Of a DNA stretch of 64,000 bases, positions 12,001 to 35,112 are shown in pieces (within the stretch, counting starts at the first letter, position 1; the number at the start of each line of letters is the position of its first letter). The notes under the pieces are model-generated. The model made no database searches. It saw nothing but the letters and a program-made list of their open reading frames with translations, and was not told the DNA's origin. This DNA comes from Rosistilla oblonga (GTDB taxonomy: Bacteria > Planctomycetota > Planctomycetia > Pirellulales > Pirellulaceae), in contig NZ_CP036292.1 of NCBI RefSeq assembly GCF_007751715.1, forward strand, positions 6,021,339 to 6,085,338. The letters run 5' to 3'. Both the position numbers and the translations under genes were made by a program.

Positions 12001-14652
12001 GTCGCCGACGGACGGGTCCGCGTTCTGGCGGTAGTCGCCGATGAACGATCCGGCCGCGCCGTGGTCTGGGACCTCGTGGCGGGACAGTTTCAACGCGTCG
12101 GCGATTTCCTGGAACACGACGCGCCACTGATGGCCGTCGCCCTTTCCGCCGATGGACTCCGCGCCGCCTCGGGAGACCGCAGCGGGCGCGTGCTCGTTTG
12201 GGAAACCAACGCGATTCACCCCGTCGATTATGCTTCGCGGATCACGATGGCAGTCAATGCGATCTCGGGAACCGACGCACCGACAAAACCGGCTGCCGAA
12301 TCGGAACTGCGATCGCGGCAAGCTCCGTCGTTTACAGAACTTATCGATTTGCAAAACGATGATACGCTTAAGCTGACGCCCGCCGATTCGCAGACGTCCC
12401 CCGCGGCGGCGCACACCGATGCCATCGAATCGATCGAGTTCAACGACGATGGGACGCAACTGCTGACGACCTCCGACGACTACACGATCAAGCTCTGGGA
12501 TGTCGCATCAAATCGCTTGACCAAGACGCTTCGCGGGCACGGCGGCTGGGTTCGCGACGCGGTCTTCTTTCCAGGAAACGATGGCCGGATCTTGTCGATA
12601 GGAAACGATGCGGCGGTCCGCGTCTGGCAACCGGCGACTCTACATGAGACCGTTGCGTTCCAGTCGACCGAATCGGACACGCCGTCGCTGCAGACGCGTC
12701 CGCACGACGATGAGATCTGGTCGGCGTCGTTTAACGCCGACGGAACGAAGATCGTCACGGCCAGCCGAGATCACACAGCTCGCATTTTGGAGATCGATCC
12801 GAAGACGCTGGGCTTCAAAAACACTGTCGACTTGGTCGACGAGGACGGACGCCTGCAAGAGGGTTCGCCGTTTGTTGCCCTTTCGCTGGCGGTCGATCCC
12901 AGCCACAACCGGTTGTTTGTCGGCAGCGCCGATTCCACCGTACGCGTCTGGGACATGGGAAGCGGCAGCCAAATTTCGAGTGCTGCGGGAACCGGGCTCA
13001 ACACAACGCTTGCCGTCTCATCCAACGGCAGCTTGTTAGTCACTGGCAGCAGCGACGAAGAAGCGCGGTTCCTGGTTTGGGAAATCGACGCGCAGGGGAT
13101 GATCGCGGAACAGCCGAAGTTCCGACTGAAACAACATCAAACCACCGTCACCGCGATCGCGATCTCTCCCGATAACCGATTGATCTTCACCGGCGATCGC
13201 AACGGGTTGGGCCTGCTTTGGGATAGTGCGACGGGCAAAACCGTCGGGGCTGCGTTGAATCAACACCTTGGATTCCGGATCAATGCGGCACAGTTCACGC
13301 CCGACAGCCAGCAGCTGTTGATTGCCGCCGACGACCAAAAGGTCTCGCGGGTCGATTTGGATACGCTGCAATTGTTGGATGTCCTTCCGCATCCAGGTTT
13401 TGTCACTCGGCTGAGCATCGCCCCCGATGGTCGCAGCGCCGCGACGTTGGCGGAATCGTCGCTCGAAGGGACGCTCACCAGCACCGTCACGCTGTGGGAC
13501 CTCAGCAATGGAAAGGACCGCGTGATCGATCGCGCTGTCCGCCGCGGCGAAGCGACTGAGGGCGACGCTGCTAAAAACCAACGCATCGTGAGCGTTCGAT
13601 TTGGCGATTCGGAAACGCTTGTCACGTCGCATGATCAAACCTCCGGCGACTTTGTCAAAATCTGGAGACTCGGCGACGCCAAGGCCGCCGTTGGCCAAGT
13701 CTTGCAGATGCCGAAGAAACTGGCGACGTTAGCCGATGCGGTCCCGATGGGATCCGACCGTCTGCTCTCGCTGGCCGGCGACGCCGCCTTCCTATGGGAC
13801 CTAAAAAGCCTGAATCACATTCGCAGCTATCGATCGCATGGGGGCGTGACCGAAGCCGATTTCTCGTTCGACGGAAAGTATGTCGTCACGGGAAGTCGAT
13901 CGATCCGAATCTGGGACGTCGCCTCGGGGCGGTCGCTGCAGAAGATGGAGGTCCCGCACGATGGAGCAGTCCGCACCGTACAATTTTCGCCCATCGAATC
14001 CGACTACACATTTGCCAGCGGCGGCGAGGATGGTGTCTGCCGTCTGTGGCGTTGGGATCCGCAGCAGCAAGCGATCACGTTGATCAAAGAATTGCAGGTC
14101 GCGGGAACCGAGAAAGCGACGATTCATCAAGTCCGGTTTTCCCCCGACGGGAAATATTTGTTGAGCGTTGGCGACGATGCGGTCGCTCGCGTCTGGAGCG
14201 TCGACCAAGATCAACCGCCACGCCTGTTCAAAGACAAGGAATCCGATGCACCTTTCTTGTGCGGAGCGTTCTCCGACGATGGGGAATGGATCGCCGTAGG
14301 GTCTGAAGACCGGCAGGCGCGCGTCTGGCAATTGACCGACGACGGCGAGGGGGCCGACACACCGCGAAGCGTCTTGCAGGGACACGCCGATCAGATCGAA
14401 GCGATCGGATTTTTGGGGAGCGATCCGCGACAGCGTCGCATCATGACCGCCAGCCGCGATAAATCGGCGCGGCTGTGGGACCCGCGACTGTCCGATCGGT
14501 CTGGCAAGGGACGCGAGATCCTCGCGCTCCGCAAGCACTCCTTGGGGCTGACTGCCGTCGACGCCACGCGCGATGGCAGCCTGATGATGACCGCCAGCCG
14601 AGATGGCACGATCATCTTGTGGCCTGCCGGCTATGCGACGCCAACAATGTAG
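9067..14652 (+). CDS. Membrane-anchored Ser/Thr protein kinase with WD40 propeller
   Basis: An 1861-residue Hanks-type kinase. Residues 1-250 are acidic and disordered. The kinase domain covers about 256-540: glycine loop GEGGMG at 263, ATP-binding Lys285 in VALKMV, catalytic HRDIKPEN at 389 with Asp391, and activation segment GGSPAYMAPE. The metal-binding motif is DWG (Asp409) instead of DFG, a form I recall from other planctomycetal kinases. One transmembrane segment lies at about 640-659, followed by a long charged coiled coil (about 667-800) and then WD40 repeats from about 890 to the C-terminus with many (L/V)WD ends. The kinase should be cytoplasmic and the coiled coil and WD40 part on the other side of the membrane, where they could bind ligands or partners. 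It starts 45 bp after the giant repeat gene, so co-transcription is plausible. No clear Shine-Dalgarno sequence is seen. The 3' end overlaps the convergent methyltransferase gene by 22 bp. Confidence 0.93.
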   Translation: MTNHDRPQKNERTVSDELDKTIQFFDEEAEQPDAQEDAQRKTDPELPNVGDQTVEFDGPTGFDADESPLSKAFGPTGTIVEEDHFLDPQQTFLANDQTVDLNEIEADDSPTLDADELQALQEGGAAFNAHGKTVNEGLGKTFETPTVDLGNPEGIGEFPTMELESGVSSDSSQSIDPDSVLDGNNITQTIDARSLNENDRKIWGLSSDLSVEIESRAQPATPYGPVDRDDITESKVLVPGRQLAGIGADLSLGSDYELIEVLGEGGMGTVYLARQTSLDRLVALKMVRPMDETRASQLRKTGRLDKAENNRRNQFLSEAIVTGDLDHPNIVPIHDLALADDKALFYAMKKVDGIPWSKAIMDKSQDENLEILLKVCDAIGFAHARGVVHRDIKPENVMLGEFGVVMLMDWGLAIPTSKCKKKSSIQKAASLGGSPAYMAPEMAAGPIESIGPASDIYLLGAVLFEIITGRPPHIGNNLTQCLKAAVTNQIVEVSSRHDGELMQIARTAMATKPSRRYASAADLQKAIRQYRSHAESIMMTVRADTDLLQAEESNEYTDFARATFGFEEALTLWPGNEIAELGLDKARVAYATTALEKEDFELGLSLLDDQHENHRPLIEKLQHGQHDRDSRRGRLRLAKQVAVGLVAFILLGGSGALYKISTEKNRAVDAERQARTNARLAEAKRAEALENMELARRSQVEAEYQKGIAQEEADEADRQRAIATQKALEAESNFQLAAANERKAVKNAEEAARQEQIALQQRSIAMKNAEEAIRQRENAVYEAYVAQIGLAKARIDQNEFDDARRILLELKAQTTDDEPPGWEWQWLWQQANQAQDDKPLAAAGRNLAINPTATQAIVTLDDGTTQRIEIDDAGEITTADVGQLPKLGSVEVTAISPDQQSIATAGADGIVRLYDAKTLELRSVLRGHSDEITSLGFVDEQRLISGSRDRTLRLWDLNQQRELAQCWHIAAVNDLSLSVADGRVRVLAVVADERSGRAVVWDLVAGQFQRVGDFLEHDAPLMAVALSADGLRAASGDRSGRVLVWETNAIHPVDYASRITMAVNAISGTDAPTKPAAESELRSRQAPSFTELIDLQNDDTLKLTPADSQTSPAAAHTDAIESIEFNDDGTQLLTTSDDYTIKLWDVASNRLTKTLRGHGGWVRDAVFFPGNDGRILSIGNDAAVRVWQPATLHETVAFQSTESDTPSLQTRPHDDEIWSASFNADGTKIVTASRDHTARILEIDPKTLGFKNTVDLVDEDGRLQEGSPFVALSLAVDPSHNRLFVGSADSTVRVWDMGSGSQISSAAGTGLNTTLAVSSNGSLLVTGSSDEEARFLVWEIDAQGMIAEQPKFRLKQHQTTVTAIAISPDNRLIFTGDRNGLGLLWDSATGKTVGAALNQHLGFRINAAQFTPDSQQLLIAADDQKVSRVDLDTLQLLDVLPHPGFVTRLSIAPDGRSAATLAESSLEGTLTSTVTLWDLSNGKDRVIDRAVRRGEATEGDAAKNQRIVSVRFGDSETLVTSHDQTSGDFVKIWRLGDAKAAVGQVLQMPKKLATLADAVPMGSDRLLSLAGDAAFLWDLKSLNHIRSYRSHGGVTEADFSFDGKYVVTGSRSIRIWDVASGRSLQKMEVPHDGAVRTVQFSPIESDYTFASGGEDGVCRLWRWDPQQQAITLIKELQVAGTEKATIHQVRFSPDGKYLLSVGDDAVARVWSVDQDQPPRLFKDKESDAPFLCGAFSDDGEWIAVGSEDRQARVWQLTDDGEGADTPRSVLQGHADQIEAIGFLGSDPRQRRIMTASRDKSARLWDPRLSDRSGKGREILALRKHSLGLTAVDATRDGSLMMTASRDGTIILWPAGYATPTM

Positions 14653-24486: not shown

Positions 24487-25530
24487 ATGATCCGCAGGCC
24501 TCGCCTTCTTAATAAAAAACGTGGCAGCCGACGTTCGGGATGGCAAATCTGGGGAACCGTTGGCGAAACGCTCTTTTTTGCCGCCCTATTCCTGCTGGGA
24601 TCCTTTGGGTTTGGACTGATCATCGCGATCGTCACCTTCGCCACCGACCAAGCTCCCGTCACGCCCGGCTTCGGATTTTGGACCCTCCTGATCGCCTCGA
24701 TCTCGCTGATTTTTCTAGGAACCAGCGGCGTGACCTATCGAATTTTGGGCGTGGGAGCCAGCCATGAGCGCCGCAGCGCGCTAGCCAAACGCGCCGCAGA
24801 AATCGAACTGGTGCCGCGTGGCAAACTGAGCAAAAACGACCTCCCCAACGTCCCTCAGCTGAAGCGAATTACCGAAAGTCCCGGCACGCAGCTCGCGTTT
24901 CGCTTGCCGACGATCGCGTCGCCGATCTGGAATCTCGCCGCGTCCGCCGCGTTGGCCTTCATGTGGACCGGATGTGCGCTGTCGTTGCTGGGAGTATCGA
25001 TCGTGTCGATCGTCGAAGGCCAGCCGCGGGTGCTGCTGACCATACTGATCGTGCCGATCAGTGCGGCGGGGATCTGGACCTTCCGCCGCTTCATCATCCA
25101 ACTGAAAAAGTCGGCTGGGATCGGGCTGTCGATCGTCGAGATCAGCAACCATCCGCTACAACCCGGACAGACCTGCGAAGTCTACGTGGCGCAGTACGGT
25201 CGTGCTGCCCTCAAATCTTTCCAGGCTAAGCTAGTCTGTGAGGAGCTATCCACATTCCGCCAAGGAACCGACGTCCGGACTGAAAAACATGCTGTTTTTG
25301 AAGAAATAGTGCTTGCTATCAGCGGAATAACCATTGACCCCAACCAGCCTTGGGAGCGAAAATTTACGTTAGCAGTTCCACCAAGTGCGATGCATTCGTT
25401 TCAAAGCCCGCACAATTCAATTAGTTGGTGGATTGTAATCCACGGAGAGGGTTCCCCTTGGCCATCGTACTTCCGAAGATTCCCGGTCGTAGTGCTACCA
25501 CACGGCGCAACAACCGCAACCAACCTATGA
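24487..25530 (+). CDS. Membrane protein with C-terminal arrestin-like domain (cassette 1)
   Basis: A 347-residue protein from ATG 24487 (MIRRPRLL; the frame is open from ATG 24439). A basic N-terminus is followed by two TM segments (about 27-80), a cytoplasmic stretch of about 70 residues, two more TM segments (about 152-205) and a beta-rich domain (about 213-347). That domain opens GLSIVEISNHPLQPGQTCEVYV, which has the same P-G-[QED]-x-[LC] turn as the next gene (YSPGDLLECNW) and as the protein at 32201-33586 (YQPGETLQATLRV); this is why I call it arrestin-like. The stop overlaps the next start (ATGA). Base composition is odd: 25261-25440 is 45% GC by my count, against 67-70% in the 5' half. 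Function unknown. Confidence 0.7.
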   Translation: MIRRPRLLNKKRGSRRSGWQIWGTVGETLFFAALFLLGSFGFGLIIAIVTFATDQAPVTPGFGFWTLLIASISLIFLGTSGVTYRILGVGASHERRSALAKRAAEIELVPRGKLSKNDLPNVPQLKRITESPGTQLAFRLPTIASPIWNLAASAALAFMWTGCALSLLGVSIVSIVEGQPRVLLTILIVPISAAGIWTFRRFIIQLKKSAGIGLSIVEISNHPLQPGQTCEVYVAQYGRAALKSFQAKLVCEELSTFRQGTDVRTEKHAVFEEIVLAISGITIDPNQPWERKFTLAVPPSAMHSFQSPHNSISWWIVIHGEGSPWPSYFRRFPVVVLPHGATTATNL

Positions 25531-25904
25531 TCAGCATCCAGCTGGATCGCGAGGAAGGTGTTTACTCACCTGGCGATCTGCTCGAATGCAACTGGCGAAT
25601 CGGTCGGATTGGTCTCGATGGCATTCAGAGCGTCGAAGCGTCCGTGTTATGGTACACCGAAGGCAAGGGTGACGAAGACTTTTCCGTCCACCACTTTGTC
25701 CGCGTCTCGGGCGAACAATTGCGTAAACTGGGCGACAGCTACCAACACTCGCTGGTCACCGCTTTGCCGATGAGCCCGCTGACCTACGACGGGCAACTGC
25801 TGCGAATCCGTTGGTGCGTCCGACTGCGAATCTTCCTTCCCAATGAAAACGATACGGTTTGGCAACAGCCGTTTTTCCTTGGTTATGCCGACAGCGACGC
25901 CTAG
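25527..25904 (+). CDS. Small arrestin-like (Spo0M/arrestin-fold) protein (cassette 1)
   Basis: A 125-residue soluble protein, MISIQLDREEGVYSPGDLLE onward, made almost only of predicted beta strands: ASVLWYTEGKGDEDFSVHHF, LVTALPMSPLTYDGQLLRIRW and CVRLRIFLPNENDTVW. The order (opening strand, Y-x-P-G-D turn, EASVLWYTEG strand, then an LPMSPLTYxG motif before a strand leading to the end) is that of the N-terminal half of an arrestin or Spo0M fold. SWPPTYHG in the 32201 protein is the counterpart of SPLTYDG. ATG 25527 overlaps the stop of the upstream gene (ATGA), giving translational coupling. Its own 3' end overlaps the ATPase gene by 20 bp. Probably a scaffold or adaptor; inference. Confidence 0.68.
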   Translation: MISIQLDREEGVYSPGDLLECNWRIGRIGLDGIQSVEASVLWYTEGKGDEDFSVHHFVRVSGEQLRKLGDSYQHSLVTALPMSPLTYDGQLLRIRWCVRLRIFLPNENDTVWQQPFFLGYADSDA

Positions 25905-26535
25905 TCCGCACGATCGGCAAGCCGCTTGGCGTCAGCCGACCAATCCGTTTGCCACCCGCTGCGTACGCCCCGCCGCGCTTCGCTTTCGCTTCGATCAAAC
26001 CAGCGTCGACCTCGAATCGCTCGCCGAAAAACTGCGTTCTCAATCAGCCGTCGGATCGGTGATCGTCGGCCCTCACGGCTCGGGCAAATCGACTCTTGTA
26101 GCCCATCTGAGCAGCAAACTTGAGAACGATTTCAGCTCGATCCAAACCAAGACCCTTCGCATCGGCGATCCGACGCGCGGCTTCATCCGCTGGGCGATTC
26201 GCCAGCCGGCCGGATCGCTGCTGATCGTCGACGGGCTGGAACAATTGGACAGCTTCCGCCGCCGGGCGTTACTGTTCGTCTGCCGCATCCGCCGCATTCG
26301 TTGCCTGGCGACCGCACACGCCCCGCTTCCCGGGTTTTGCGAATTGCATCGGACCGCCGCCACGATCGACTTGGCCAAACAACTGGCCAGCGAACTACTG
26401 AGCCAAGATAAGCTCCGAATCGCTGCGGCCCACGATTTCATCGACCAAATCTGGGATGATCTCGACGGCAACCTCCGCGAGCTGTGGTTCGCCATGTATG
26501 ATTGGTATCAAGCCGAGGCGCTCGCGTCTCGCTAG
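25885..26535 (+). CDS. Small P-loop ATPase (cassette 1)
   Basis: A 216-residue protein from ATG 25885, overlapping the upstream gene by 20 bp. An N-terminal NPFATRCVRP box (about 18-27) precedes Walker A GPHGSGKST (about 66-74) and Walker B SLLIVDGLEQLDSFRRRA (about 110-127). A sensor-like strand RCLATAHAPLPGF follows. The protein ends in an acidic, aromatic helix (GNLRELWFAMYDWYQAE). The same order of elements occurs in the ATPase at 31596-32201, also next to arrestin-like proteins. It resembles AAA/STAND-type NTPases (AAA-16/22-like) reduced to the core. It may power or switch assembly of the arrestin-like membrane proteins; no direct evidence. Confidence 0.72.
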   Translation: MPTATPSPHDRQAAWRQPTNPFATRCVRPAALRFRFDQTSVDLESLAEKLRSQSAVGSVIVGPHGSGKSTLVAHLSSKLENDFSSIQTKTLRIGDPTRGFIRWAIRQPAGSLLIVDGLEQLDSFRRRALLFVCRIRRIRCLATAHAPLPGFCELHRTAATIDLAKQLASELLSQDKLRIAAAHDFIDQIWDDLDGNLRELWFAMYDWYQAEALASR

Positions 26536-26546
26536 CCAGCGGCGCA

Positions 26547-27245
26547 ATGCCTACTGTTGCCGCGCGACCTTTCGTGCACAGACCCCTCGAGTTTTCTCGC
26601 CCCGCGAATAGTACAGTAATGCCTATTGTTATGCCCGTCGTCGTCAGCCAAGCCGCTGGCGCAAACCAAGCTCATCGCGATTTGGAAGAGAAGCTCGTCA
26701 CGCGGCTGATGCTCGACGAAGCAGCCGACGTGCGGCTGATCGGACCAATGCAGCAGCTGCAAGGCAATTCGACCGACCAAATCATGCTCGAACGCATAAC
26801 CAGCGATTTCATCCTACTCGGCTGGCACGCACCCGAGGAGAGCTTGCGAAATTTGCAGGCGCTCGGCATCGCCGCCCGTCGCGCCGCCCATGCCGGCGAC
26901 CGGAACCCGCCTTTGAGATCCTGCCGCGGCGTCTACTTTATCGACCTCACGAAACTGAAGTCGATCGACGATGCGATCCTGCAGATCAAAGCCTGCTCGG
27001 CGAACCGAGCGAACAAAACGATCCAGATTGGCCTGTCGGCACCCAGCCCCAAAAAGACGGCTCCTCCGGTGACACCCTCTTCGCCACCGCCGACATCCCA
27101 GCCCGCTTCGCCTGCTGCGGAGAGTCCATCCACAGCCGAGCGCTATGTCGCTCTGGGGCGGAACGATCACCGCGACGAACCTCACGACGCGGTGGACGAT
27201 GCGATGGAATCGCTGATCGATGAACTCGATCAGATGGATCTATGA
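26547..27245 (+). CDS. Unknown protein closing cassette 1
   Basis: A protein of up to 232 residues. ATG 26547 lies 11 bp after the ATPase stop; ATG 26619 (MPIVMPVVVSQ) is a good alternative because conserved-looking sequence begins there and the stretch between has weak coding character. Neither has a clear Shine-Dalgarno sequence. From 26619 there is an alpha/beta domain of about 130 residues (VVVSQAAG strand, then a helix, ITSDFILLGWHAPEESL, GVYFIDLTKLKSIDDA), a Pro/Ser/Thr linker (about 140-175) and a very acidic tail ending DELDQMDL. I do not recognise the family. The layout (domain, disordered linker, acidic peptide tail) suggests an interaction partner for other cassette proteins. Confidence 0.55.
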   Translation: MPTVAARPFVHRPLEFSRPANSTVMPIVMPVVVSQAAGANQAHRDLEEKLVTRLMLDEAADVRLIGPMQQLQGNSTDQIMLERITSDFILLGWHAPEESLRNLQALGIAARRAAHAGDRNPPLRSCRGVYFIDLTKLKSIDDAILQIKACSANRANKTIQIGLSAPSPKKTAPPVTPSSPPPTSQPASPAAESPSTAERYVALGRNDHRDEPHDAVDDAMESLIDELDQMDL

Positions 27246-27266
27246 TCGTTTGATTTGCGGTGCATC

Positions 27267-28958
27267 TCAAGCAACGCGGCGGACATGAATCCGCGCGTCC
27301 AACGCGACGGCGCCGTGTGGCGAGACGAGCAAAGGGTTCATCGTCAGGTGTCGAATTTCCGGGCAATCGGTAAGCATCTGCGCCGTCCGCAACATCACGT
27401 CGACAAGCGAATCGACATCGATCGCCGCGCGATTGCGAACGCCTTGCATCAACGGCCAGATCTTTAACGAGCGAATCATCCCGCGGGCGACCGGAGTGTT
27501 CCACGGCGGCAGCTCAAAGACCGTATCGCGCAACGCTTCGCCAGCGATCCCGCCGGTCGCCAACATCAACATCGGTCCCAACACTGGGTCGCGGAAGCCG
27601 CCGACAATCAATTCAAACGCATCGCGTGAATCGATCATCGGCTGGACCGTTACGCCCGGCACGATCGCATCGGGAGCGTGTTGCCGCGCCGAACGCATCA
27701 ATCCGCAAAACGCAGCCCGGACTTCCGATGCGTCATGCAGATGCAACGCCACGCCACCGACATCGGTCTTGTGTGCGATCTGCTGCGAGACGATCTTCAA
27801 CACCACCGGATAACGCAACACTTCGGCACAAGCGACCGCTTCATCGATACTCCCCGCCCGCAGCGATTCAGCGACCGGAATGCCGTAAGCGCTCAGCACC
27901 CGCTTCGATGCATCTTCGGCCATCGTTTCGATCGAATCCCGGACTGCGTCGGATAGCGTTTGTTGCACGATCAGCGGACTGCAATCGCTACGCAGCTGAT
28001 AACTGCGGGCCGGTTGATCCAAATACTCGCGGTGGCCTCGCTGTTGCAATAGATAATCGAGTGCCACGATCGCTTGTTGCGGCGATCGAAAGCTTGCGAT
28101 GCCCGCAGCTTGCAACAACGGCTCAACCGCCGTCGCCCCAGCCTCTCCCATCACCACCGCCAACACCAGCTTCGTCGAATCGCGGCAACGATCGATCCAA
28201 AGCGTCGCCGCTTCGCCAAGATCAGTTGACGCCGGCGGGCTCCAGATCACAAGCACCACATCCGCGTTGCCGTCTTCCAAGACGCAACCGACGGCATCGG
28301 CAAACCGTTGCGAGGCGGAACAGCCAGTGCCATCGAACGGGCTTGCGATCTCGCCGTGCTCGGGCAGCAAACGCTTTAGCGATTCGATGGTGCACGGCTC
28401 CAATTCCGCCACCACGCTGCGGCGATCTTGCATCGCTTCGACAGCAACCCGCCCGATCCCGCTGGCATTGGCAATGATCGCAACGCGAGCCCCTGACACG
28501 CGTGGCTTTCGCGATAGAAAGGCAGCGGCATCAACAACATCGTCCGGCGCCGCAACTCGTACCATGCCGCACTTGCGGAAGAGAGCGTCATCCATGCGGT
28601 CGCGATCCAACCAGCCGCCTTCACGCAGAATGTTGCGTGCCGACGATTCAAAGGTTCTCGGCGTGTAGATCACGATCGGCTTGCGACCACAACATTCACC
28701 GGCCGCTTCGATCAAAGCCTCGACATCGTCGATCGAATCGACACAGATCCCAATCGCATCGGTCTCTGGATCGGCTGCGATGCGGAGGAGAAAATCGGCA
28801 AGCGTCGCCCCCAACACTTTGTCGACCGACACGACGTGCGACAGACCGACCGATCGCTGCCTGGCCCGATCGACCAAGCCATCGCACAAAACAGCGGACT
28901 CCGAGATCAACGCGATCTGTTTCGCGACCGGCACTCTCTCTGCACAACGAATACTCAT
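27267..28958 (-). CDS. NDP-forming acyl/acetyl-CoA synthetase-like protein lacking the CoA-binding domain
   Basis: A 563-residue protein. Residues about 10-320 match the succinyl-CoA ligase-like flavodoxin domains of ADP-forming acetyl-CoA synthetases (IALISESAVLCDGLVDRA, VSGARVAIIANASGIGRVA, FDGTGCSASQRFADAV). Residues about 345-563 are the ATP-grasp part (KRVLSAYGIPVAES, YPVVLKIVSQQIAHKTDVGGV, LMLATGGIAGE, HLTMNPLLVS). Full-length relatives (acetyl-CoA synthetase, Pat-type enzymes) begin with a Rossmann CoA-binding domain of about 140 residues, which is absent here; the start is fixed by GGAGG 8 nt before ATG 28958. The catalytic His region of the flavodoxin part also looks changed (IANASG where family members usually have TNAGG). 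It may need a separate CoA-binding subunit, or may have a regulatory role. Convergent with cassette 1, 21 bp apart. Confidence 0.8.
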   Translation of the reverse strand: MSIRCAERVPVAKQIALISESAVLCDGLVDRARQRSVGLSHVVSVDKVLGATLADFLLRIAADPETDAIGICVDSIDDVEALIEAAGECCGRKPIVIYTPRTFESSARNILREGGWLDRDRMDDALFRKCGMVRVAAPDDVVDAAAFLSRKPRVSGARVAIIANASGIGRVAVEAMQDRRSVVAELEPCTIESLKRLLPEHGEIASPFDGTGCSASQRFADAVGCVLEDGNADVVLVIWSPPASTDLGEAATLWIDRCRDSTKLVLAVVMGEAGATAVEPLLQAAGIASFRSPQQAIVALDYLLQQRGHREYLDQPARSYQLRSDCSPLIVQQTLSDAVRDSIETMAEDASKRVLSAYGIPVAESLRAGSIDEAVACAEVLRYPVVLKIVSQQIAHKTDVGGVALHLHDASEVRAAFCGLMRSARQHAPDAIVPGVTVQPMIDSRDAFELIVGGFRDPVLGPMLMLATGGIAGEALRDTVFELPPWNTPVARGMIRSLKIWPLMQGVRNRAAIDVDSLVDVMLRTAQMLTDCPEIRHLTMNPLLVSPHGAVALDARIHVRRVA

Positions 28959-28966
28959 CCGAGCGT

Positions 28967-28971
28967 CCTCC
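28967..28971 (-). promoter_or_regulatory. Ribosome binding site fixing the short acyl-CoA synthetase start
   Basis: GGAGG on the minus strand (28967-28971), 8 nt before ATG 28958. It supports a genuine start without the CoA-binding domain. Confidence 0.7.
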
Positions 28972-29176
28972 GTAAAGTTGGGCCGACGGTTGATTCGCGG
29001 TTCGCATCGGACAAACGCCAGATGCGACCAAAGCACACATCAGTATAGGCGAATCAGGGGGCGAGCGTTCCTTGCCGACGAAACAGCAAACGCCGCGTCC
29101 GATGAAACTTTCGTGAATCCTCGCCCGCCGCCAGATAGCTTTCGCAGCGGCGAATGTTGCGAGAGCTCCGCTGGGT

Positions 29177-30547
29177 TTAGCTGCCTCGATAGTTGCGGAG
29201 CACGCTGGCCAGATGATGCGACAGCAAAACCGCGATCGCTCCCGGAATCAGGACCGTCACCGCATCGACGAAACGCCCCAGCGGAGCGGATGTGAGGACG
29301 ACCGGAATCATCCCCAACACACTGTAAAGCAAAGCGAAAGCGAGCGTTAAGACGTTCGCTCGCGTAACCTCTTCAGGTACCAGGATTGCGGAAACGCAGC
29401 GATCAGCGTCTCGCCGACAGAGCGGCAGCAGAATCAACGCGACAATCCCCACCAACAAACAGACGAAAAATGGTGGGTGCAAACCGATGTGAGCCAGAGC
29501 GATGCGCACCGTCTGGCGCACCGCTTTGGCGATCCAGATCGCATAAGCGATCGGTTTCCGAAGAATGATTTCTCGATTCAAGCTCGAGATCTCGGCGTGC
29601 TGCAGCAATACATCGTCACCAAAATCGCGGCTCGCCGTCGGGACGACCACTTCGTAGATCATCGCATTCCAGCGATCCTCCATCGTTTGATACCCCATCC
29701 CTTCGGACAACGCGGGATGTGCCGCATACCAATCGATGCGAGAAGCAAGAACATGTTGCGCGAACGCCTGCTGATCCGCTGGCAACTGCTGGACGATCTC
29801 CTGATCCATGAACTGGACCGTGACGCCAGCGAGGTTCTGGCTGCCAAACGCGACCACGCCAAACTGGCCGACGACGACTAATCGGATCAGCGAATAGATG
29901 ACCACGGGGCCCAGGCTAGCAAAAAACAAGACACAACACCGACGCATCGTTGGCATCCAAGCGAGCCCCGCGTCCCGCCAGATCAACGCCGCCGCGACTG
30001 GCAGAAATCCAACGAGAAACAGGTACGCCGGCCGGCAAAGAATCGTGACGATCGACATCAGACTGATCGCAAGCAGCAGCCACGGCGATCGCGTGTTGCA
30101 ATACATCAGCAGCAGACTGCAGGTGATCAGGCTCATCGAGACCGCCAGCGAATCGGTCGAGATCAGGTTGACGTTGAACCATAAGGTGATGCTCAACAGA
30201 GACGCTGCCGCCATCAGAAACGTCTGCCAGCGTGGGATCCCGATTTTGGAGAACCCAAGGGCCAACATCGCACAAGCGATCAGATGCACCAGCAACTGAA
30301 AGTGAGGAAGCAACGACATCGCCCCCGTCAACTCAAACAGCTCAAGAATCGCGGGATAGACCGGCGTGCGAATGCTCTTCAATGCAGCCGCAAACGAATC
30401 AAAAGGGAACTCGAGATAACTCGGCGAGTCGGGAACCTGCTGCGGGTGCAATCGACCGGTGACCTGCAACGCCACGACCAAACATCCCGCCAGCGCGATC
30501 CAGATCCCTACCAGCCAATTGCGTGACGAAAAATCGGGTTTGCTCAC
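29177..30547 (-). CDS. Polytopic membrane protein, probable GT39-like glycosyltransferase
   Basis: A 456-residue inner-membrane protein with about ten hydrophobic segments. The first extracytoplasmic loop has the arrangement DSPSYLEFPFD...IRTPVYPAILELF, similar to the D-x-x-Y and R-x-P-x-Y-P elements of lipid-linked-sugar glycosyltransferases (PMT_2/GT39-like). Later elements are WFNVNLISTDSLAVSMSLI (a second acidic site) and a large loop (about 245-335) between the middle and C-terminal TM groups. Substrate unknown; it would transfer a sugar from a polyprenyl carrier on the outer side of the membrane if the assignment holds. Monocistronic and divergent from surE. Confidence 0.65.
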   Translation of the reverse strand: MSKPDFSSRNWLVGIWIALAGCLVVALQVTGRLHPQQVPDSPSYLEFPFDSFAAALKSIRTPVYPAILELFELTGAMSLLPHFQLLVHLIACAMLALGFSKIGIPRWQTFLMAAASLLSITLWFNVNLISTDSLAVSMSLITCSLLLMYCNTRSPWLLLAISLMSIVTILCRPAYLFLVGFLPVAAALIWRDAGLAWMPTMRRCCVLFFASLGPVVIYSLIRLVVVGQFGVVAFGSQNLAGVTVQFMDQEIVQQLPADQQAFAQHVLASRIDWYAAHPALSEGMGYQTMEDRWNAMIYEVVVPTASRDFGDDVLLQHAEISSLNREIILRKPIAYAIWIAKAVRQTVRIALAHIGLHPPFFVCLLVGIVALILLPLCRRDADRCVSAILVPEEVTRANVLTLAFALLYSVLGMIPVVLTSAPLGRFVDAVTVLIPGAIAVLLSHHLASVLRNYRGS

Positions 30548-30837
30548 GGCGAGGCACCTTGGGGCGATGAAATGTCGGACGCCGCCAACCGACGGGTCGC
30601 AAAAGGCCCGGAGCCAAGGTAGTTTTGGATCGGCGAGCGTCCTCGCAGCCAGCGGCCGCGAATCGCATTAAAGGTTACCGATTGCCCAAGAAACTGACAA
30701 GCAAAGCAGTCGAGCGCGGGGGAGAACGGAAGCGTCGGCGAAGAAAACATGACGACGCAGCTCGCTCGCGGCGCCCTGTTCAAAATCGAGAACATTGATG
30801 CTACGTTGCTCTGCATAACACAAGGAGCTGATCAACG

Positions 30838-31590
30838 ATGCGTATTATGTTAACAAACGATGATGGAATCTTCGCGCCGGGGCTGGAGGCGATGGAACGA
30901 GAGTTCACGCCGCTGGGCGATGTCCAAACCTGCGCGCCGACGACCGAGCAAAGCGGCGTCGGGCATTCGATCACCTACCTGACTCCGCTGACCTATAAAG
31001 AAGTCTTCCGCGAAAACGATCGAATGGCATTTGCTGTCGACGGATCGCCGGCGGATTGCGTCAAGCTGGGCATTTCCGAACTCTGCGAACATCGCCCCGA
31101 CGTGGTGATCAGCGGCATCAACAGCGGGCTCAACGCTGGCATCAACGTCCTCTATTCGGGAACGGTTGCCGCCGCGATCGAAGCTGCCTTTTTTGGCGTC
31201 ACCAGCTTCGCCGTTTCGCTCGAATACGATCCCCACGCCGACTATCGCCGCGCCGCCGAGATCGCCCGCGAGATCGTGATGAAGATCGTCGCCCGCGACG
31301 AAGCCAAAGCGGGTTTGTTCAACATCAACATCCCCACCGCAGCGACGCGGCAACCGGCGGAAGTGCGTGTCGTCCCGATGGGCATCGGGCATTACGGCAG
31401 CCAGTACATCAAACGCCAGGATCCCAACAACCGAGACTACTACTGGGCCACGGTCGATCCGCCTCCCGCACCGACCGATCACAACACCGACCTCAACGCG
31501 TTGGCGGAAGGCTTCGTTACGGTCTCGCCGCTAAAATTCGATCTGACGCGTCAAGAACTGCTGTCGCCGATGAAGACATGGGAACTGTAG
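30838..31590 (+). CDS. surE: 5'/3'-nucleotidase SurE
   Basis: A 250-residue metal-dependent nucleoside monophosphate phosphatase. The N-terminus MRIMLTNDDGIFAPGLEAM carries the metal-binding Asp pair. CAPTTEQSGVGHSIT (usually AP..qSG.g.s.t), FAVDGSPADCVKLG, DVVISGINSGLNAGINVLYSGTVAAA (metal-binding Asn) and the C-terminal VSPLKFDLT are all in place at usual spacing and length. AAGGAG precedes ATG 30838 by 9-10 nt. It acts in the cytoplasm in nucleotide salvage and stationary-phase survival. It is followed by the cassette 2 ATPase after only 5 bp, so the cassette may be transcribed from the surE promoter. Confidence 0.96.
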   Translation: MRIMLTNDDGIFAPGLEAMEREFTPLGDVQTCAPTTEQSGVGHSITYLTPLTYKEVFRENDRMAFAVDGSPADCVKLGISELCEHRPDVVISGINSGLNAGINVLYSGTVAAAIEAAFFGVTSFAVSLEYDPHADYRRAAEIAREIVMKIVARDEAKAGLFNINIPTAATRQPAEVRVVPMGIGHYGSQYIKRQDPNNRDYYWATVDPPPAPTDHNTDLNALAEGFVTVSPLKFDLTRQELLSPMKTWEL

Positions 31591-31595
31591 ATCGG

Positions 31596-32201
31596 ATGGA
31601 TTGGCAACCCTTTGCGGCGATGAACCTGCTCCGCAATCCGTTTGGTGAACTGACGCGTGAAGACCGCGTGCGAGCCGCCGTGGTCGATGTCGCCGATTGC
31701 ATCGATCGTCTGCAGCAACCGCAAACGGCTTTGCAGTTCATAGCCGACTGTGGTCGCGGCAAGACGACGCATCTGTTGTCGATCGCGGCTCAGGCCCCCG
31801 CCGCGGCATACGTCTATCTGCCCGAAGACGAACGTTGCCCGCCGATCCCGCACGGCCAACCGCTGCTGATCGACGAAGCGCAGCGATTGCCTTGGCTTGT
31901 GCGACGGCGAGCCTTCGCTCGCGGCGGCGCGTTGGTGCTGGGAACGCATGTCGATTTAAACGGCCCACTACGGCGTGCAGGATACAGCGTCTGGACGTAT
32001 CATGTGGGGCAAGATCTCACGGCAGAACGACTAGCCCAAATGCTCAACCGACGAATTCAGCTGGCCCAACTTCGCAGCGGACCGATTCCGCAAATCAGCG
32101 AAACCGAGGCAGCCGATTGGATGGCACGCCATGGCAGCGATATCCGCGCGATCGAATTCGATTTATACGAACGCTTTCAACAGCAGATTGGAGTCGGCTG
32201 A
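31596..32201 (+). CDS. Small P-loop ATPase (cassette 2)
   Basis: A 201-residue protein whose frame is open far upstream inside surE; ATG 31596 is 5 bp after the surE stop and begins MDWQPFAAMNLLRNPFGEL. Elements in order are an NPF box (about 14-16), Walker A-like ADCGRGKTTHLL (about 52-63), Walker B QPLLIDEAQRLPWLVRRRAF (about 87-106), a strand GALVLGTHVDL and a C-terminal helix GSDIRAIEFDLYERFQQ. The Walker A is short (C-G-R-G-K-T-T, without the first Gly). The order matches the cassette 1 ATPase (25885-26535). The stop overlaps the next start (TGATG). It is probably a membrane-associated partner of the arrestin-like protein; inference. Confidence 0.75.
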   Translation: MDWQPFAAMNLLRNPFGELTREDRVRAAVVDVADCIDRLQQPQTALQFIADCGRGKTTHLLSIAAQAPAAAYVYLPEDERCPPIPHGQPLLIDEAQRLPWLVRRRAFARGGALVLGTHVDLNGPLRRAGYSVWTYHVGQDLTAERLAQMLNRRIQLAQLRSGPIPQISETEAADWMARHGSDIRAIEFDLYERFQQQIGVG

Positions 32202-33586
32202 TGGCAAAATGCAGCTTGGCAATCGAACTCGACGAACCCGACCGCCTCTACACATCAAACGACCGCATCCGCGGCACCGTCGTCGTTCGCGCCGATGACG
32301 ATGTCCAATGCAAAGCACTCAAGGTTCGCAGCGGCTGGGCGACCCACGGCCGCGGCAACATCGATTCGAACGATTTACATTCCGAAGTGCTGTTCCAAGG
32401 GCAATGGCGCAGCGGCGAAGAACATCGCTACCGCTTCGACCTGCCCGTCTCGTCATGGCCCCCAACGTATCACGGCACGTTCCTGAACGTCGATCACTAC
32501 ATCCATGCGACCGCGGATATCCCCTGGGCATTCGACCCGAAAGAATCGCAACCGTATCGGGTCGTCAGCTCCAACGCACCCGGCGCCGGCGTGGTGGAAA
32601 AAGATGCCGCGAACAACGCGATCGTCGGCGGGATCTTGAAGTTCTTTTTCATCGGCCTCGCGTTGTTCATGCTGCTCAACCCGATGCTCTGGATCCTAGC
32701 GTTTCCCATTGGGATCGGCGGCGGGGTCTGGTGGTTCCTGAAATCCTACCTCCCCAAGAAACTGCTGGGCGACGTCGAATACACATTAAACCAGGATAGC
32801 TACCAACCAGGCGAAACGCTCCAGGCAACGCTTCGCGTTCATCCCAAAAAGGATATCCCGATCAATTCAGTGATCTGGACCGTGACAGGCGTCGAGGCCT
32901 GCGTCTCGGGCTCGGGAAGCAACCGACGAACGCATCGCCACGAACTGTTCCACGGTGGAAAGCTGGTCGACGAGCTTCGCACCCTGCCCGGGAACAAGGA
33001 AACCCTAATCCCTTTGGAACTTCAACTGCCCGACAAACCTTGTTTTACGATGAACCTAGGTTCGAATCAGATCGCCTGGAAAACGACGATTTGTATCGAC
33101 ATCCCGCGCTGGCCCGACTGGAACGATTCGCGTGCCATTCAGCTCGCACCGTCGAAAGAACTCGTCCAGGCAGTCACCGTCGAAACGATCGACAGCGGCG
33201 GAGACATCTCGACACAGCCGACTGCGGCGGCTGGCGAAGAACCCGACGTGACCTTCGCGGCAACGCTAGAGATGATTCAATCGGTGATCGACGACGACAA
33301 ACAAGTCGACCGAATCGTCGATGCCGTTCGCGACTTGCCGATGCAGTTGAATCTGATTCCGCAGCGCCGCGAACTCTACAGCAGCAGCAGCAAGGATCAC
33401 GCCTACGCCGATGGACACGTCGTGATTGGGCAAACGATCGACCCCGTGATGCCGGTCACGATGTTCATTCCGCGTTCCTTGGCCGATGAGTTCGACCAAG
33501 CGACCGATCGTCCGTGGAGCGGGGAGGGGAGTATCGTCGGATACGACCATCGCCAAAACCGCTTGCAATTACGTATCGAACCCTAA
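32201..33586 (+). CDS. Arrestin-like / TM hairpin / arrestin-like membrane protein (cassette 2)
   Basis: A 461-residue protein starting at ATG 32201, sharing one base with the upstream stop. Residues 1-130 form an arrestin-like beta-sandwich (SLAIELDEPDRLYTSNDRIRG, then a SSWPPTYHGTFLNVDHYIHA motif typical of arrestin N-domains). A two-segment hydrophobic hairpin lies at about 144-184 (ILKFFFIGLALFMLLNPM, LAFPIGIGGGVWWF). A second arrestin-like domain covers about 192-310 (YTLNQDSYQPGETLQATLRV, VIWTVTGVEACVSGSG). A C-terminal alpha/beta part of about 130 residues has no recognised family. Locus 1 has the same pieces split over two genes. Arrestin folds in bacteria (Spo0M) are mostly soluble, so the membrane insertion is unusual. 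Role unknown; a scaffold is likely. Confidence 0.72.
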   Translation: MAKCSLAIELDEPDRLYTSNDRIRGTVVVRADDDVQCKALKVRSGWATHGRGNIDSNDLHSEVLFQGQWRSGEEHRYRFDLPVSSWPPTYHGTFLNVDHYIHATADIPWAFDPKESQPYRVVSSNAPGAGVVEKDAANNAIVGGILKFFFIGLALFMLLNPMLWILAFPIGIGGGVWWFLKSYLPKKLLGDVEYTLNQDSYQPGETLQATLRVHPKKDIPINSVIWTVTGVEACVSGSGSNRRTHRHELFHGGKLVDELRTLPGNKETLIPLELQLPDKPCFTMNLGSNQIAWKTTICIDIPRWPDWNDSRAIQLAPSKELVQAVTVETIDSGGDISTQPTAAAGEEPDVTFAATLEMIQSVIDDDKQVDRIVDAVRDLPMQLNLIPQRRELYSSSSKDHAYADGHVVIGQTIDPVMPVTMFIPRSLADEFDQATDRPWSGEGSIVGYDHRQNRLQLRIEP

Positions 33587-33651
33587 CGGCGCGATGCGTC
33601 CAATCGCCGCTCGCCGGCGTCGACTTTCCGATTGATTTGACAGGTGCCTCG

Positions 33652-35112
33652 ATGGCTCGAAACGAAAAAAGCCGCTGGGGCGGCATTGTGATTGGTCCCG
33701 TCATAATGCTCGCTGCCATGGCGGCACTCTGGTGCAACGAGACCCGATACGACTACTACAAAGCAGCCGCGAAGACGACCGAAGTTGCAGCTCCCGCCGA
33801 TGCCGAACCGGGATCCAACTTCTCGCTCACCGGATCGATGGATCCAGGATTAACGTACTCTGGAAAATACGTCGATTCGTTCACCGGCTACCTGACCGTC
33901 GCGCGCAGCGCCGAAGTCTATTGCTGGGACCGCGATAAAGACGATGACCGCGTCCGCTGGTCGAAAAAATGGATGAGTAGCGTCGAGAACAATTCGCGAA
34001 ACAGCGGCATCCATCAGCAGTGTTCGTCGACTTCGCTGACCCCGCCGGAATATCGAGTCGGTGAGTTGCCGGTCGACGGCCAGTTGATCGAATTCGTCGA
34101 CCCCCATAATACTATTTCCCCCCACAGCCTCACCCTTTCCCAAGCCGGCACCCAGCTGCATCTGAAACCGCAAGGCGAATACTTCTACTTGTCCAAGAAT
34201 CATTCGGACAACCTGGGTGATGAACGCGTTCGCTACACGGGAATCCCGGTCCCCGCGGTCGCAACCTATTTCGGCCAGTCCGCATCGGGACGGGGCGTCG
34301 CCGACCAATCGCACCGACGCACGGGCTTTATCAATCAGATCATCCAAGACTCGGGCAACCTCCACTACATCGTGGCCGGGGATCGAAAAACTGCTTTGGC
34401 GTCGATGAAGTCCCATATCCAACGGCTGAAATGGATCGTCCGCGCGATCGGCACCGCAGCAGTCGTAATCGGAACGCTGATCCTCGGTTCGACATTTGTC
34501 GGGTTCCTGTTCCACATTCCAGTGATCGGTCCAATCGCCGAAATGGGAGTGTTCCTGGTCGCCCTGCTGATCGGTCTGCCGCTGGCACTACTTACGATCC
34601 TGAGCGGTTACCTTGCATCTCACCCTTTCATCTTGGCAGCGATCCTGACCGGAATCGTGGCGATCATCTATTGGATTCGCAAACGCGGCCAAGACTCACA
34701 ACAAATCCTCAAGCAGGACCTGGACCAGCAATACGGGCACCAGCTTAGTTACGAAGAGTTGAAAGATCTGGAGTTCTTGGAACTGGCGCAGCTGGCATTT
34801 TCAGACGCTAACCTCGACACCGGCGAAGCCAAAGTGTTGTCGCAGTGGGCTCGCAAACACGGCTGGGATAAAACGAAATGCGATGCGATGATCCAACGTG
34901 CCAAGGAGAATCGAGGGACCGAAGCGGCCGCGGAATCGAACGACGATCACTTGCAAAACCTGATTCGCTTGGCGATGGCCGACGGCTCGCTCTCCAACTA
35001 TGAAGTCCGCACGATTCGCAAGGTCAGCAAACAGATCGGTTACGACGACAAAACGATTCGCGAAATGATCGACCGCGTCCGACGCGGGATCGCTACACCA
35101 ACACCTGCCTGA
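33652..35112 (+). CDS. TMEM43-family protein with C-terminal TerB-like domains
   Basis: A 486-residue protein. ATG 33652 gives MARNEKSRWGGIVIGPVIMLAAMAALWCNETR, an N-terminal TM anchor (the frame is open from 33514). The large lumenal/periplasmic part (about 35-255) carries the TMEM43 signature: GYLTVARSAEVYCWDRDKDD, then W-x-x-K-W, NSRNSGIHQ, PEYRVGELPVD and LHYIVAGDRKTAL. Three or four TM helices follow (about 265-345), as in human TMEM43/LUMA. The last 130 residues are two small helical units (FLELAQLAFSDANLDTGEA, NLIRLAMADGSLSNYEV) with the D-G-x-L-x-x-x-E pattern of TerB-like domains. TMEM43 proteins interact with other membrane proteins and cholesterol-rich membranes in animals; TerB domains are adaptors in bacterial stress systems. 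The cassette context suggests a membrane stress or scaffold complex. Confidence 0.8.
   Translation: MARNEKSRWGGIVIGPVIMLAAMAALWCNETRYDYYKAAAKTTEVAAPADAEPGSNFSLTGSMDPGLTYSGKYVDSFTGYLTVARSAEVYCWDRDKDDDRVRWSKKWMSSVENNSRNSGIHQQCSSTSLTPPEYRVGELPVDGQLIEFVDPHNTISPHSLTLSQAGTQLHLKPQGEYFYLSKNHSDNLGDERVRYTGIPVPAVATYFGQSASGRGVADQSHRRTGFINQIIQDSGNLHYIVAGDRKTALASMKSHIQRLKWIVRAIGTAAVVIGTLILGSTFVGFLFHIPVIGPIAEMGVFLVALLIGLPLALLTILSGYLASHPFILAAILTGIVAIIYWIRKRGQDSQQILKQDLDQQYGHQLSYEELKDLEFLELAQLAFSDANLDTGEAKVLSQWARKHGWDKTKCDAMIQRAKENRGTEAAAESNDDHLQNLIRLAMADGSLSNYEVRTIRKVSKQIGYDDKTIREMIDRVRRGIATPTPA

Follow-up and report, generated by a model that had tools for sequence, protein, structure and literature searches.

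Arrestin-like lobes and small AAA+-type ATPases recur as gene partners in planctomycetes and may form a membrane-anchored adaptor

Why should a planctomycete encode small P-loop ATPases in tight linkage with beta-rich, membrane-associated proteins? The question is raised by a 64,000-nucleotide stretch of the Rosistilla oblonga chromosome (the window; contig NZ_CP036292.1, 6.02 to 6.09 Mb of a 7.25-Mb one-contig genome), in which two gene sets of this kind lie 5 kb apart. Cassette 1 consists of coupled genes for P0001, P0002, and ATPase A (P0003), in this order, followed by the gene for P0004, and in cassette 2 the gene for ATPase B (P0005) precedes that for P0006, a single chain. Here, we report that the beta-rich parts are assigned to the arrestin fold and the ATPases to the AAA+ type, that their pairing recurs strongly in planctomycetes, and that the proteins may work together as a switched adaptor at the membrane.

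The genes and motifs of both cassettes lie on the forward strand of the window. P0001, the C-lobe protein (347 residues; 24487..25530), is joined by an ATGA overlap to P0002, a putative soluble N-type arrestin lobe (125 residues; 25527..25904), which in turn overlaps ATPase A (216 residues; 25885..26535) by 20 bp. ATPase B (201 residues; 31596..32201) and P0006 (461 residues; 32201..33586) share a TGATG overlap. P0006 contains an N-type lobe (32201..32563), a hydrophobic segment recognized by inspection that is probably in the membrane (32618..32761), a C-type, Spo0M-like lobe (32768..33160), and an extra region formed by its last ~125 residues (33203..33583), for which no Pfam family was found. 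The gene coordinates, the sizes of both ATPases, and the two last-named overlaps were present as claimed in a preliminary description of the locus, and so were the three turns quoted there, LQPGQTCEVYV in P0001, YSPGDLLECNW in P0002, and YQPGETLQATLRV in P0006.

Different lines of evidence identified the individual lobes. The AlphaFold2 model of P0001 (54 aligned rows; mean predicted local distance difference test score [pLDDT], 84.6) contains four helices taken as transmembrane (residues 20-52, 62-90, 147-176, and 182-211), followed by a beta domain. When its C-terminal lobe (residues 212-334; 25120..25488) was compared with the Protein Data Bank (PDB) by Foldseek, the matches included ARRDC3 (expectation value [E], 3.8e-9), Spo0M (3.7e-8), TXNIP, and Vps26, which suggests an arrestin-type beta-sandwich. 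P0006 was recognized by Pfam, both as Arrestin_N (E 9.7e-12; 45.5 bits against a cut-off of 24.9) and as Spo0M (1.5e-5; 25.1 bits against 23, over profile positions 14-139 of 213). Among members of the fused family, Arrestin_N was matched by 7 of 7 and Arrestin_C by 6 of 7, and the best PDB profiles were those of TXNIP (2.5e-7) and ARRDC3 (3.6e-7), matches of the Vps26 type being weaker. P0002 is assigned to the arrestins because it is homologous to the N lobe of P0006, which is the sole basis for the assignment: BLASTP between the two gave an E value of 2e-4, and the P0002-only alignment A5 matched alignment A4 in hhalign (E 2.7e-7, probability 93). A5 serves as the independent test here, since alignment A2 includes N lobes of fused proteins, so that neither its comparison with A4 nor its PDB matches are independent. 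Alignment A7, which combined the fused protein with the split lobes, was set aside, as MAFFT had laid N lobes on the C lobe. Three N-lobe relatives yielded no Pfam match, and NCBIfam returned nothing for P0001, P0002, P0004, and P0005, BlpZ at 0.075 for P0006, and only P-loop-type families for P0003. Thus, the arrestin/Spo0M folds proposed in the preliminary description were borne out by model and fold search for the C lobe, by Pfam for P0006, and by profile kinship for P0002, but four such lobes were found (the C-terminal one of P0001, P0002, and the N-terminal and middle ones of P0006) instead of the five beta-rich domains it had counted.

The two cassettes carry these lobes differently, on two chains in cassette 1 and on one chain in P0006. 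Residues 157-341 of P0001 align with P0006 in hhalign (E 3.4e-18), the hydrophobic segment of P0006 aligning to helices 3 and 4 of P0001. The lobe alignments therefore indicate that P0006 is equivalent to P0002 joined to the C-terminal half of P0001, and the fused protein thus acts as a "Rosetta stone" that hints at contact between the split lobes. Neither protein is of the Spo0M type over its whole length, as four long helices precede the lobe of P0001 and P0006 possesses the hydrophobic segment. Relatives of P0001 may carry a further domain, DUF3592, which was detected in the N-terminal part of 18 of the 54 rows (E 0.01) and in all 7 C-lobe proteins given to Pfam (best, 2.4e-14 in L204). P0001 of the window showed no Pfam match to DUF3592, and in its model helices 1 and 2 are joined by just a short loop.

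For ATPase A, the AlphaFold2 model (60 aligned rows) reached a mean pLDDT of 94.8, and its Foldseek matches in the PDB were AAA+ clamp loaders (RFC), NSF, and RuvB, with 1sxj_E as the best (E 4.0e-6; template modelling score 0.60 by query). Judged from its Walker A and Walker B motifs and a modelled alpha-beta core with a helical lid, the enzyme belongs to AAA+, and ATPase B is placed there by homology. Conservation was read from a 60-row alignment of ATPase A, ATPase B, and 58 sequences from three-gene loci. In the NPF box of ATPase A (25942..25950), N20 and P21 are present in all rows and F22 in 58; in its Walker A motif (GPHGSGKS; 26068..26091), G65, G67, and K68 occur in 60 of 60. D116 of the Walker B strand (26218..26235) is D in 57 rows and E in 3. 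A sensor-1-like T-x-H (26311..26319) has H145 in every row and T143 in 54, and the sensor-2-like arginine R198 (26476..26478), assigned by its position in the model, is again found in 60 of 60. The invariant Walker A lysine, the NPF-box asparagine and proline, the T-x-H histidine, and the sensor-2-like arginine argue that nucleotide handling is under selection. ATPase B carries its NPF box at 31635..31643, a Walker A motif in which the first glycine is replaced by alanine (ADCGRGKT; 31743..31766), and a classical Walker B (LLIDEAQRL), whereas the Walker B of ATPase A (DGLEQL) is STAND-like. The motif order that the preliminary description had seen in both enzymes was confirmed, running from the NPF box through Walker A, Walker B, an arginine-rich helix, and a strand ending in T-x-H to a G-x-x-R helix. 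The kinship of the two escaped a plain pairwise BLASTP (E 0.71, not significant) but emerged from iterated profiles, as each family retrieved the other; thus, ATPase A and ATPase B are diverged homologues by profile comparison.

To what extent do these genes belong together? In 146 genomes of the order, scored by profile matches at E 1e-10, the ATPase was found in 128 and the P0001 family also in 128; both were present in 126, neither in 16, and one alone in 4. The last group comprises G030 (whose match is partial and lies at the end of a contig) and G085 (62% complete) with the ATPase only, and G031 (83% complete) and G037 (73%) with the C lobe only. A single-sequence search of the same genomes detected relatives of ATPase A in 124 and of ATPase B in 11, some places matching both. 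The starts of the ATPase and C-lobe genes are at most 2.5 kb apart in 108 of the 126 genomes and farther apart in 18, among them G009 and G067 at 2.5 to 2.7 kb. Of the 16 genomes that have neither gene, 12 are at least 90% complete, and both states occur within each of two genera of family f8, g37 and g46, which suggests that joint loss happened more than once. In a draw of 294 genomes across the phylum, the ATPase exceeded 60 bits in at least 29 (5 of them from the window's own order), a lower bound because 11 candidates per genome were scored; 46 further genomes, all below 60 bits (75 of 294 pass E 1e-5), were taken as P-loop background and left uncounted. A genome recorded as Rhodopirellula baltica has a split arrestin pair together with a fused form, and in the host genome both the ATPase profile (E 1e-10) and the fused-arrestin family profile (E 0.01) retrieve only the two cassettes of the window. 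The ATPase and arrestin genes are therefore recurrent neighbours in other planctomycetes, beyond what chance would give, as the preliminary description had expected of one system.

For the most part, the genes keep their order and lie close together. Among the best 80 of 196 P0002 relatives (recorded as planctomycetes, two as just "bacterium"), all three genes stand in order at 62 loci, 3 operons are cut by a contig edge, and 15 have no ATPase downstream, one of which (L170) ends ~100 bp past the N lobe. Eleven of these 15 genomes were searched and all 11 encode an ATPase elsewhere; with two genomes holding the full operon, the family was present in 13 of 13, with best matches of 94 to 166 bits, and several of these ATPases adjoin P0004 or a fused arrestin. 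The P0001 stop is followed within 30 nucleotides by the start of the P0002 profile in 64 of the 76 loci scored among these 80, and the P0002 stop by the NPF box within 100 nucleotides in 56 of 65 scored. At ATPase A loci (L042-L081), the C lobe, N lobe, and ATPase lie on one strand in this order in 36 of 40, the exceptions being L046, L058, L062, and L068. The eight ATPase B loci comprise six with the ATPase and then a fused arrestin (L082-L087) and two in the three-gene order (L088 and L089). Twenty loci from the phylum draw (L120-L139) gave the three-gene order in 12, the ATPase and then a fused arrestin in 3 (L128, L138, and L139), and the ATPase alone in 4 (L124, L130, L135, and L136), with a C-lobe match of the P0001 family elsewhere at 61 to 94 bits; L125, in which a single long frame ahead of the ATPase encodes the C lobe and the N lobe, was counted apart. 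Two C-lobe frames precede the N lobe and ATPase at L089 (1108-4291) and at L120.

The preliminary description regarded the two cassettes as duplicated versions of one system. Their homology holds, but a local duplication is judged unlikely, since the distance between the two ATPase types is 2.6 Mb in G121 and exceeds 100 kb in both G117 and G137 (G113, with its short contigs, was left out of this comparison), and since the ATPases of fused arrestins form a clade of their own with members of other families. In a quick tree of 70 ATPases, whose details are unsure owing to long branches (including those of L088 and L089), ten sequences from fused-arrestin loci and one without a fused arrestin form one clade with a Shimodaira-Hasegawa approximate likelihood-ratio test (SH-aLRT) value of 96; the opposite side of the tree comprises 57 rows (SH-aLRT 99). 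From sequence comparison, the cassettes look like two old paralogous forms with split and fused arrestins, respectively, the three-gene form is possibly the older of the two, and the 5-kb closeness in the window may be due to chance.

How might such proteins work together? The joint absence of both genes, the display of arrestin lobes at the membrane, and a nucleotide site that is intact throughout the rows examined point to one machine, and we propose, at a probability of about 0.4, a membrane-anchored, composite two-lobe arrestin adaptor that is switched by its own AAA+-type ATPase. The C-lobe protein would be held in the inner membrane by its four helices (in the fused form, probably by two) with the arrestin lobe on the cytoplasmic side, a topology suggested by the basic N terminus and the four helices of P0001. 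The soluble N lobe would then dock on the C lobe and rebuild a two-lobe arrestin, which the fused form would already have in one chain. The ATPase would bind the lobes, and ATP binding and hydrolysis would open or close the composite such that a client is gripped or released. By analogy with the way in which eukaryotic alpha-arrestins and Vps26 grip their cargo, the client is most likely a membrane protein, and DUF3592, where present, would be the input domain, outside the membrane in the assumed topology.

Several observations weigh against this adaptor model. The lobe of P0001 was not recognized by Pfam, Arrestin_C and Arrestin_N each appearing in 1 of 54 rows at E 0.005 to 0.009; P0002 has no Pfam family, and the P0002-only profile (A5) found no PDB chain. 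As to lobe docking, the AlphaFold2 models are of single chains. The loop that follows sensor 1 contains no highly conserved arginine that could act as an arginine finger (R156 occurs in 23 of 60 rows), which makes a ring motor doubtful. L088 and L089, both three-gene loci, are placed with the ATPase B group in the tree (13 rows, SH-aLRT 99). Moreover, the 16 genomes with neither gene mean that the system is dispensable, and the Fisher test for joint presence (P = 2.6e-17) ignores the relatedness of the genomes.

The main rival, which we consider somewhat unlikely, is a sensor-switch: DUF3592 and the helices would sense the state of the envelope, the arrestin lobes would relay it, and a STAND-like ATPase would trigger a response, with no cargo handling. 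It draws on DUF3592 in the 18 C-lobe rows and on ATPase A, whose DG-x-EQ Walker B resembles that of STAND/NACHT proteins and whose best Pfam matches were NACHT (2.8e-5; 24.5 bits against a curated cut-off of 26.7) and AAA_16 (4.1e-5), both below their cut-offs; a small ATPase with no added domain could also suit a switch. However, P0001 of the window has no DUF3592 match, ATPase B has the classical DEAQ Walker B, and the ATPase carries no effector domain. A scaffold that shapes the inner membrane or a division or budding site through its arrestin lobes and is remodelled by the ATPase, akin to the ATPase-driven membrane scaffold conjectured in the preliminary description, appears unlikely. Bacillus subtilis Spo0M has cytoskeletal cell-division proteins among its interaction partners and shows a life-cycle-dependent localization, according to the abstract of PMC5325327, but a scaffold sits poorly with the 16 of 146 genomes that have neither gene and with an ATPase above 60 bits in only the 29 or more of 294 phylum genomes.

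The surroundings of the ATPase allow for yet another role, that of a housekeeping, clamp-loader-like DNA repair enzyme that merely adjoins the arrestin pair. Clamp loaders and RuvB are indeed among its top Foldseek matches, and, of 49 loci, 21 have a uvrD-like gene and 11 a DNA-polymerase-X-like gene in their flanks, both named by eye. This is judged very unlikely, given the joint absence of ATPase and arrestins: ATPase and C lobe are present or absent together even where their genes lie apart, the spacing to the arrestin genes is tight, and a second ATPase type accompanies the fused arrestin. An anti-phage defence system was likewise judged unlikely. PADLOC gave 18 matches for ATPase A, all over the P-loop region (best, 1.5e-4), and none for P0001, P0002, P0004, P0005, or P0006, so that the core proteins are without a specific match, and presence in 128 of 146 genomes would be unlike a defence island. 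The adaptor model could finally be taken further, to a membrane protein sorting machine resembling alpha-arrestin and retromer adaptors, in which a composite arrestin, rebuilt at the inner membrane from a transmembrane-anchored and a soluble lobe, would be loaded onto its clients and taken off them by a dedicated AAA+-type ATPase. This extension, drawn by analogy, seems improbable; if true, it would represent an ATP-gated arrestin cycle in bacteria, within a phylum where membrane traffic is an old matter of dispute. Endocytosis-like uptake in planctomycetes is contested in passages of PMC5394234, so that none of our claims extends to uptake.

In eukaryotes, proteins of the arrestin fold serve as cargo adaptors; the alpha-arrestins ARRDC3 and TXNIP are soluble two-lobe adaptors, and Vps26 has Vps35 and Vps29 as partners. 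ARRDC3 is the best fold match of the C lobe, and TXNIP and ARRDC3 are the best PDB profiles of the fused family, but the planctomycete lobes appear membrane-anchored, are split or fused around a hydrophobic segment, and come with an AAA+ gene. Vps26 of retromer and VPS26C of Commander share the two-lobe arrestin fold at weaker fold and profile matches; no ATPase of this kind is known to belong to them, and no genes for partners of the Vps35/Vps29 type were noticed here. The ATPases resemble AAA+ clamp loaders, RuvB, and STAND NTPases in fold, Walker motifs, and sensor-1- and sensor-2-like residues but differ in their length of ~200 residues with no extra domain, in having no conserved arginine-finger candidate after sensor 1, and in their arrestin neighbour in place of DNA partners.

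A close bacterial counterpart is Spo0M of B. subtilis (PF07070; PDB 5cl2), an arrestin-clan lobe whose family cut-off is passed by the C lobe of P0006 and which the C lobe of P0001 matched in Foldseek. Neither membrane helices nor a dedicated ATPase partner is mentioned for Spo0M in the parts of PMC5325327 and PMC2515105 consulted. The latter, in the part consulted, gives its range as Cyanobacteria, Actinobacteria, Proteobacteria, Firmicutes, and Halobacteriaceae, and the word stem "planctomyc" is absent from its main text. Searches combining arrestin with Planctomycetes or Planctomycetota yielded no such system by title and start of abstract, within a scope of open papers other than preprints, in keeping with the preliminary description, which knew of no described system of this composition. 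"Arrestin" does not occur in the passages of PMC10632474 and PMC5394234, and the only mention of DUF3592 found in the literature concerns a beta-lactamase. Bacterial members of the arrestin fold are little studied, and here, in most genomes of an order noted for unusual membranes, a conserved operon couples arrestin lobes with an ATPase of their own. With three defined proteins, a fused version that occurs in nature, and genomes that naturally have neither gene, the function is directly testable in cultured species, for example, R. baltica.

The neighbouring genes proved less constant. P0004 (232 residues; 26547..27245), which has no Pfam match, is an optional part: its family follows ATPase A at 17 of the 80 named loci and at 2 incomplete ones, and among the loci drawn from the order it was seen only in those of the window's own family. 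Cassette 1 as originally drawn also takes in P0004, which is shared by part of the relatives only. Members of the P0004 family stay with the ATPase where the arrestin pair lies apart (L058 and L062); examples are L073:5216-5941 and L062:5373-5987. Cassette 2 had been drawn to include P0007, a TMEM43 and TerB protein (486 residues; 33652..35112; Pfam TMEM43 3.2e-16 and TerB 2.8e-6). We rejected it as a member, since it is not recurrent: beside other cassettes it gave no match in one scan and none above 40 bits in two more, which covered loci other than L120-L139. Its TerB part matches the PADLOC candidate PDC-S48 (2.7e-6). Upstream, surE (30838-31596) ends 5 bp ahead of the start of ATPase B, and cassette 2 may thus be co-transcribed with surE in the R. 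oblonga genome.

Other genes recur in the vicinity of the ATPase. A probably exported protein rich in Y-R-P and V-P-V, as seen by eye, is encoded on the same strand ~1 kb after the ATPase at 26 of 49 loci; it falls into three sequence clusters, and L066:4590-5786, L046:6777-7850, and L079:4621-5679 gave no Pfam match. The start of the window is occupied by two very long open reading frames, at 142-9021 (2959 residues) and 9067-14652 (1861 residues). At 25 of 49 loci, mostly 2 to 4 kb before the ATPase, lies a gene for a small, stand-alone member of the RNA polymerase alpha C-terminal domain family, the tested example being L075:8454-8771 (Pfam 7.1e-18).

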